Source: an uncultured Alphaproteobacteria bacterium (GTDB lineage Bacteria; Pseudomonadota; Alphaproteobacteria; UBA7985). From it: a stretch of DNA of 64,000 nt. The notes beneath the pieces are model-generated. The model saw nothing but the letters and a program-made list of their open reading frames with translations. It had not been told where the DNA came from and ran no database searches. A program made the position numbers and the translations under genes. The first letter of the stretch is position 1; each line of letters begins with the position of its first letter. Shown here piece after piece: positions 1 through 2,171 of this stretch. The DNA lies in NCBI GenBank assembly GCA_905479265.1, contig CAJQLX010000019.1, positions 1 through 64,000 of the forward strand, in the 5' to 3' direction.

Positions 1-137
1 TGTTGCGCTAAGATACCTTTGGGTATTTCTTCATCTGAAATTGGAATGCTTACATTGCTTTTGAAATCTATAGCAGTAATTGTATTTTTATCTATTATTA
101 ACCTATCAATATATCCAAGAATGTTATCGAGAGCTTG
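1..137 (-). CDS. addA: Fragment of AddA helicase-nuclease (PD-(D/E)xK nuclease core), off the left edge
   Basis: On the minus strand this stretch is open and translates to a segment containing GYIDRLIID, then AIDFKSN, then EEIPKGILAQ. That order matches the C-terminal PD-(D/E)xK nuclease core of AddA, the helicase-nuclease of AddAB double-strand-break repair; the Asp of IDRL and the Asp and Lys of DFK are the expected metal/catalytic residues. The C-terminal part continues off the left edge. The frame is closed by a TGA at 138-140, so no complete gene can extend rightwards. Only 35 of the first 120 bases are G or C, far below the rest of the window. I infer a foreign or mis-joined fragment, not a working gene. 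The family call is by eye from about 44 residues. Confidence 0.72.
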
Positions 138-566
138 TCAGCCTTGGCCATGATGGACTTGGTCGTCAGTGCCCTGCATAACGCTTTCCCGAGCTTCTTT
201 TGGACCGGTTTTTATCGGCGGGTGGCGCCGTCGACGCTAGAGGTCGGGCCATCACAAGGGACGCTTGGGTGCAGTCATATTGAATTTGGCAAGGGTGTTT
301 GCGGCACTGTGGCAGCGACGCAGAAAACGCGAATTGTCGATGATGTTCACGCAGAGCCCAACCACATCGCCTGTGACAGCGCCTCGCAATCGGAAATCGT
401 GGTGCCTGTTTTCGTCCGTGGCAAGCTTGCGGCCGTGCTAGATGTGGACAGCACGGCGGTTGCTGCCTTTTCGAGCACAGACCAGCACGCCTTGGAAGAA
501 ATCTGTGGCTGGGTTGGCGCGGCGCTCGAAGGCCGCGCGCTGGGCGGCGTGATTGTGGTTGAGTAG
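135..566 (+). CDS. msrC: Free methionine-(R)-sulfoxide reductase (GAF-type fRMsr), 5'-truncated
   Basis: A cytosolic enzyme that reduces free Met-R-sulfoxide with thioredoxin. The GAF-fold signature is clear: FWTGFYR near residues 22-28, VGPSQGTLGC with C46, GKGVCGT with C56, and HIACDSASQSEIVVP with C80. In the family these are the three conserved cysteines, and the third (C118 in E. coli YebR) is catalytic. Family members carry about 20-25 more N-terminal residues than are present here. The only nearby start is a TTG at 135; the frame is open upstream to 102, but that part is AT-rich and reads as AddA on the other strand. I infer that the true 5' end was lost at a junction around 122-137. 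It converges with the next gene, 6 bases apart. Confidence 0.85.
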   Translation: MSALAMMDLVVSALHNAFPSFFWTGFYRRVAPSTLEVGPSQGTLGCSHIEFGKGVCGTVAATQKTRIVDDVHAEPNHIACDSASQSEIVVPVFVRGKLAAVLDVDSTAVAAFSSTDQHALEEICGWVGAALEGRALGGVIVVE

Positions 567-572
567 AGCGGG

Positions 573-1052
573 CTAGAGCAACCCGTTAAACAGTTCAACC
601 AACTGGTCTACGTCCTGCAAACCGACATAGACGCCTTTCTTCCGGCCAAATTTATCGAACAAAATCAGCGTTGTGTACCGCGCCGCGCCGTGTTTGCTGG
701 CAAAGGCAATGCCTTCGCTCTTGTGCAAATACGCCATTCGGTAGTGCAAGCGGTCATCGTCGATCTCGGCGAGGGCGCGCTTGGTGTTGGCACGGAGGAC
801 GTCACAATCAGCACAGTTGAGTTGATGAACTTGGACAATCACCGGCTCACCCTGCCCCACAATGCTGAAATCTTCTTCCAAGCTTTGCCGACTGGCGAAC
901 AACCAAACGACGCCTGCAATGGCTGCTAAGACCACCAAACCCACGATCCCGGTAATCCACCGATCCCGTGTCCTCTTACGCTCCATGATTTTGGCATGGG
1001 CACTCAAAGGTGCGCTGGATAATTTAGAACCTTGCTTGGGTCGCTTCGCCAT
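573..1052 (-). CDS. Membrane-anchored thioredoxin-like protein with a CADC motif
   Basis: A 159-residue protein with a basic N-terminal cytoplasmic segment (1-31), one transmembrane helix (about 32-53) and a periplasmic domain. The domain reads VIVQVHQLNCADC with cysteines 80 and 83 spaced CxxC after a beta strand, and later YTTLILFDKFGRKKGVYVG, which resembles the strand-turn-strand end of a thioredoxin fold. ATG at 1052 is preceded by AGGGAG at good spacing. The N-in topology places the CxxC outside the cytoplasm, suggesting thiol redox work or sensing. The neighbouring methionine sulfoxide reductase gene, convergent with it, fits an oxidative-repair context, but that is inference. The exact family is unrecognised. 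Confidence 0.7.
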   Translation of the reverse strand: MAKRPKQGSKLSSAPLSAHAKIMERKRTRDRWITGIVGLVVLAAIAGVVWLFASRQSLEEDFSIVGQGEPVIVQVHQLNCADCDVLRANTKRALAEIDDDRLHYRMAYLHKSEGIAFASKHGAARYTTLILFDKFGRKKGVYVGLQDVDQLVELFNGLL

Positions 1053-1295: not shown

Positions 1296-2171
1296 TTAGC
1301 GAGCAAAGAACGAGAACTTGTCTTCGCCTGCGCGGTTTTGGATCACAACTTTCTTGCGAGCGTTCTTCTCATCAAGAAAGGCGATGAACGCCCGAGCTTG
1401 CTTGCGGGTGTCGAACGTCTGGATCAAAGCGCCGTTTGGCTTCTCAACCCGGAATTCACGCGGACCGTCCTTGTCGATCACCAGATTGTCTGGGTTCAGA
1501 CGAATGATCCGATCAGCACCGCTCCAGCCCTTGCCAACCCGTGGCAGTCGACCGTTGGCAAGGAACAGACGCGTTTTGTCTGCTTTGCCGTTCTTGCGAA
1601 CCGTTTTGATCACACACGTTGTATCAAGGCCCAAAGCATCGAGTGCGTGCGCAACCCGCTTCATCACCGGGCGTCGTGCGTTGATGGTCTCGAGCACAGA
1701 ACCATTGGGCCGACGAAGCGTGAACTCATGGGGCGCATCCCAGGAAATACCAATGTGGCCGTGGTCCCGACAAGACGTGGTGTAGTTAACCGCCCGCTGT
1801 TGAACAACCGGCTTAGGCGCGGGCTTTGGCGCAGGCTTTGGCGTCACGTGAACCCGTGGTGGGTTGTAGGGCTTTGGCGCGGCGTAGTGCTTTGGCGCAA
1901 CATAGCCATAGTGACCCGTCACTTCTGCGTTTGAATTGGACAGCGCATCGAGAAGAGCAATGCCACCGATCAGCAAACCGCCCAAAACAATGGCGTTACC
2001 CAGATTGTTGCCGTGCTGGTCCTGGCTCTGTGATGTTGAGTAGGTGTGCGAGTGCGGCAAGTGCGAATAGCTGTGGGTGTGAGAACCATCTGCCTTAGCA
2101 ACGCCCGCAACGGCAAACACGCTAGCGGCGGCAATCGAAAGAGTGGCGATGGTGGTGTTAAACTGTTTCAT
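1296..2171 (-). CDS. Secreted or anchored His-rich protein with a C-terminal two-repeat domain
   Basis: The 291-residue product has a signal peptide (1-27, ending VAKA), a His-rich segment (31-42, including LPHSHTYS), and a Gly-rich hydrophobic helix (about 59-76). A Pro/Lys-rich linker follows (94-122, PKPAPKPAPK). The C-terminal part contains two copies of a roughly 55-residue unit, starting DAPHEF (145) and DGPREF (235). Both have the pattern D-x-P-x-E-F-x4-P-N-G-x-[VL]-[LI]-x-T-[IF]-x-x-R. There are only two cysteines (134 and 186), possibly a disulfide. The helix may anchor the protein. I do not recognise the family. The order signal peptide, His-rich stretch, hydrophobic helix, domain recurs in the FG-GAP protein at 52.5 kb. 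ATG at 2171 is preceded by a purine-rich AGGACA. Confidence 0.75.
   Translation of the reverse strand: MKQFNTTIATLSIAAASVFAVAGVAKADGSHTHSYSHLPHSHTYSTSQSQDQHGNNLGNAIVLGGLLIGGIALLDALSNSNAEVTGHYGYVAPKHYAAPKPYNPPRVHVTPKPAPKPAPKPVVQQRAVNYTTSCRDHGHIGISWDAPHEFTLRRPNGSVLETINARRPVMKRVAHALDALGLDTTCVIKTVRKNGKADKTRLFLANGRLPRVGKGWSGADRIIRLNPDNLVIDKDGPREFRVEKPNGALIQTFDTRKQARAFIAFLDEKNARKKVVIQNRAGEDKFSFFAR

Follow-up and report, generated by a model that had tools for sequence, protein, structure and literature searches.

Gene content of the contig start

The analysed window comprises the first 64,000 bases of contig CAJQLX010000019.1 (C19; 87,164 bases in total) from an uncultured alphaproteobacterium (UBA7985; assembly GCA_905479265.1), whose draft genome consists of 61 contigs (2.89 Mb). 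Base 1 of the window is the first base of the contig. Two incomplete reading frames meet at this end, i.e., a minus-strand piece of AddA and a plus-strand fRMsr gene of the GAF family, followed by two further native genes:

1–127, minus strand: foreign flap, very probably; AT-rich C-terminal nuclease region of AddA, HTCC2255-like (TIGR02784 match; 125/127 DNA identity to HTCC2255 locus L161, 37/127 to native contig C6)
127/128: very probable chimeric join, blunt, with no shared or inserted bases (base-by-base comparison with HTCC2255 and C6)
128–253, plus strand: 126 bases shared exactly with the C6 contig tip (reverse strand), i.e., k-1 for k = 127 (contig comparison)
129–566, plus strand: native fRMsr gene, remaining part with residues 43–187 of 187 plus stop (joined frame; start on C6 base 251, minus strand)
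573–1052, minus strand: native neighbour gene, a synteny anchor (kept beside fRMsr in two same-genus genomes)
1296–2171, minus strand: next native gene, a synteny anchor (kept at the same place in the same-genus genomes G400 and G398)

The AT-richness that a sequence-only reading had reported for the first 120 bases (35 G or C) is reproduced by recounting (35/120), the GC content of the whole window being 56.7 %. The lowest values of the window (GC ≤29.2 % in sliding windows of 120 bases) are found in 26 such windows, all of which start within positions 1–26. Among the 122 contig tips of the assembly, the start of C19 is the one with the highest AT content (28.3 % GC over 127 bases vs. a median of 56.3 %).

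On the minus strand, the frame 137–3 is open and yields 45 residues of AddA, matching the NCBIfam model TIGR02784 (addA_alphas) with an E-value of 6.4e-8 at model positions 1066–1106 of 1138. Its bit score falls well short of the whole-protein cut-off of the family, as would be predicted for a piece of 45 residues. The AddA nuclease fragment recognized by the sequence-only reading is thus borne out by the model, and the TGA at 138–140, said to terminate its frame, is present on the minus strand. The first three residues of the 45-residue frame correspond to native antisense DNA rather than to AddA. A PDB search with this piece returned nothing relevant.

Origin of the terminal 127 bases

An earlier donor search across 398 genomes of the phylum and 394 genomes of one family produced best matches of just 44–59 % identity. 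A further scan employed one genome per species and, as query, an alignment of the flap with eight relatives; it returned 147 stretches, 118 of which encode relatives and 80 of which were kept. Among these 80, strain HTCC2255 (Rhodobacterales according to the NCBI taxonomy) is the top match with 91 % identity across all 45 residues, followed by two matches at 84 and 78 %, while the fourth and all subsequent ones do not exceed 61 %. In the nucleotide alignment, 125 of the 127 flap positions (98.4 %) agree with HTCC2255, and the GC content of the HTCC2255 locus (L161) amounts to 35.2 %. Judged from sequence comparison, bases 1–127 are accordingly nearly identical to the predicted AddA gene (TIGR02784) of this NAC11-7-type marine Rhodobacteraceae strain, differing from it in that merely a 127-base piece is present here. 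HTCC2255 is to be regarded as a stand-in for the actual donor strain. Bacteria of this type are described (PMC10203303) as abundant at the surface of coastal waters and tied to phytoplankton blooms.

When a 4135-base HTCC2255 stretch around AddA was searched against the draft genome, C19:1–127 alone was returned, indicating that the remainder of the donor locus is absent from this bin. Likewise, a search of the contigs detected no additional copy of the flap; the sole other AddA found is the genome's own, an intact AddA-like ORF of 1257 amino acids on contig C9 that shares 33 % identity with the flap. Neither a search of a phage collection with bases 1–127 nor one for an exact 36-base flap pattern in viral_contigs gave a match, so that an origin from a phage or mobile element is unsupported.

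Position of the join

Base-by-base comparison with HTCC2255 and C6 places the breakpoint exactly between bases 127 and 128. To its left (1–127), 125 of 127 bases agree with HTCC2255 and 37 with C6; to its right (128–253), all 126 bases agree with C6 and 29 with HTCC2255, the latter matching at only 5 of the 13 positions from 128 to 140. Since base 127 differs from the C6 base and base 128 from that of HTCC2255, the join displays neither microhomology nor an insertion relative to both sequences. The abrupt junction proposed from the sequence alone therefore holds, at a single point instead of the range 122–137 given there, and the taxonomic comparison of its two sides, which had been suggested as a check together with a similarity search for AddA, assigns the left side to HTCC2255 and the right side to the genome itself. 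The two sides hence originate from different organisms.

Native continuation of the fRMsr gene

Window positions 128–253 are 100 % identical to bases 126–1 of C6. Joining C6 to C19 restores an uninterrupted fRMsr of 187 amino acids, with C6 supplying the missing N-terminus; a protein-level search locates residues 42–187 on C19 and 1–83 on C6. The absence of the N-terminus, as noted in the sequence-only reading, thus applies to C19, not to the genome. The plus-strand protein at the window start matches Pfam GAF (E 8.6e-12), and the 187-residue protein matches PDB entries 3mmh (methionine-R-sulfoxide reductase; E 3.4e-27) and 1vhm (yebR; E 4.6e-27). Residues 21–168 of 187 align with 3mmh, which indicates homology to solved fRMsr proteins across the GAF domain and makes the protein a predicted reductase. 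Apart from being split over two contigs, the protein shows no unusual difference from known fRMsr proteins. The ATG of the joined frame shares bases with the stop codon of a 1185-residue ORF on C6, which we take to encode an indolepyruvate ferredoxin oxidoreductase(-like) protein.

Among 41 genomes (the own genome plus 40 relatives), 14 contain an fRMsr match. These include two of the five other genomes of the same genus, i.e., G400 (locus L017) and G398 (L018); no fRMsr was found in the remaining three, one of which is 94 % complete. The gene neighbourhood was inspected at seven fRMsr loci. In both G400 and G398, the same large ORF as on C6 lies just upstream of fRMsr, and the two window genes downstream of fRMsr are also present in conserved order; at the five more distant loci, no such neighbour was seen. 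The gene order shared by both same-genus loci marks C6-C19 as the native arrangement. When the first 260 bases of the window were searched in the six genomes of the genus, G400 matched from base 128 onward, and the junction itself was found only in the own genome.

Overlaps between contig tips

All 122 tips (both ends of 61 contigs, 600 bases each) were compared with each other for shared stretches of at least 25 bases. The 26 stretches detected comprise 13 of 127 bases, two of 126, four of 41–102 and seven short internal repeats, the 13 tip pairs of the first group having exactly their terminal 127 bases in common. Constant terminal overlaps of 127 bases are the trace left by a SPAdes-type de Bruijn assembler run at k = 127, and the tip overlaps point to such an assembler and k in the present case. 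The flap, at 127 bases, has the length of one k-mer, i.e., one graph vertex; together with the 127-base tip pairs and the native overlap of 126 bases, its length follows k.

The two 126-base overlaps are those between the starts of C6 and C19 (offset 127) and between the C15 start and the C32 end (offset 183). Five other partly overlapping tips (ends of C32, C33, C40, C61 and C58) appear by eye to be near-identical variants of their partners, consistent with strain variation rather than foreign DNA. The respective pairs (C15/C32, C13/C33, C36/C40, C47/C61 and C56/C58) differ by scattered substitutions, from which it follows that at least two strains are combined in the assembly and that some regions may occur in duplicate.

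Low GC contents were also observed at other tips. The outermost 127 bases of the C39 end (L135) and the C18 end (L115) have 34.6 and 35.4 % GC, respectively, with no obvious long frame, and are probably intergenic, a further foreign flap being the less likely reading. At the C58 start (L094) and the C34 end (L130), most of the 600 bases have a GC content of 41–43 % (57 % in the window); by eye, their translations presumably contain a motif as in DNA methyltransferases (TSPPYW) and a protein resembling tyrosine recombinases, and the tips perhaps represent a mobile element.

Interpretation of the join

The tip of C19 is best explained as an assembly chimera, in which 127 foreign bases are attached to the native genome (probability about 0.96). 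The origin of the two sides from different organisms, the presence of the correct native continuation elsewhere in the assembly (on C6), the synteny in two related genomes and the k-length flap jointly agree with the view, already favoured by the sequence-only reading, that a chimeric contig end is the simplest explanation. The two organisms would have been present in one metagenome, where a false edge in the graph, or chimeric molecules of the library (a single one or very few), may have linked the AddA 127-mer to the fRMsr 127-mer. Output of the contig would then have begun at the vertex 1–127, where the graph branches, and the true link to C6 would have been severed one base before the junction vertex, so that the contigs share 126 bases and not 127. 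Should the flap be the branch vertex of a complete AddA locus in a co-sampled organism, the contig must stop after that vertex.

The structure resembles a chimeric edge or false contig tip of a SPAdes-type assembly in that two unrelated sequences meet at a branch defined by a k-mer, tips have exactly k bases in common and the true continuation is another contig. It differs in the length of the true link (C6/C19), which at 126 bases implies that C6 stops one base before the junction vertex; SPAdes can trim an edge by one base on disconnecting it. The 126-base overlap counts against the assembly chimera, although it recurs in the C15/C32 pair, and so does the failure to find fRMsr in three of the five other same-genus genomes. 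According to PMC6736328, graph simplification in SPAdes removes chimeric edges, and chimeric reads may give incorrect contig junctions.

A variant of the assembly chimera, rather than a competitor to it, attributes the false join to computation alone, via a repeat common to both genomes. De Bruijn graphs generally collapse shared k-mers; however, comparison with HTCC2255 and C6 reveals no shared base at the join, so that no repeat links both sequences and a chimeric molecule or read is favoured as the seed. An in silico origin is therefore rather unlikely, although the outcome would be alike in both cases, i.e., a false contig tip.

Real illegitimate recombination or transfer, the alternative raised by the sequence-only reading, would place HTCC2255-like AddA DNA beside fRMsr in some cells, with the unaltered C6-C19 arrangement also present. 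A minority structural variant of this kind would likewise yield a branch in the graph, illegitimate recombination can show joins without homology, and strain variation does exist at other tips of the assembly. Yet the foreign part ends after exactly one 127-mer, which is expected only with a normal AddA locus in the graph; foreign DNA truly residing beside fRMsr, without another copy in the sample, would have no reason to stop there. The contig itself ends at base 1, and a search with the surroundings of the HTCC2255 AddA site turned up nothing else in the genome; by eye, the other tips with partial overlaps, five in number, are same-species variants and not foreign, and in none of the five other same-genus genomes was the junction found. 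With no positive support for this alternative, it is highly improbable that real recombination accounts for the tip, and equally so that a small share of the cells harbours a genuine recombinant between species, with HTCC2255-like Rhodobacteraceae DNA joined non-homologously into fRMsr. The chance that the flap is native, i.e., a second AT-rich addA remnant or a mobile element of this genome, is next to nil: an AddA frame is indeed present, but its DNA is 98.4 % identical to that of a 35 % GC organism from another group, no other copy exists in the genome and the own intact AddA is just 33 % alike. The true continuation provided by C6 and the synteny in G398 and G400 likewise contradict a native flap.

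Implications

The assembly chimera at the C19 tip has no biological importance and involves no biological function: no gene is broken in the organism, and the fRMsr is an ordinary one. Automatic annotation of C19 would wrongly list the fRMsr as truncated, along with an isolated piece of AddA; both errors would be removed by trimming bases 1–127 and joining C6 to C19. The case serves as a reminder that foreign sequence in a draft assembly can occupy exactly the k terminal bases of a contig, and that an apparently truncated gene at a contig end may be whole over two contigs.
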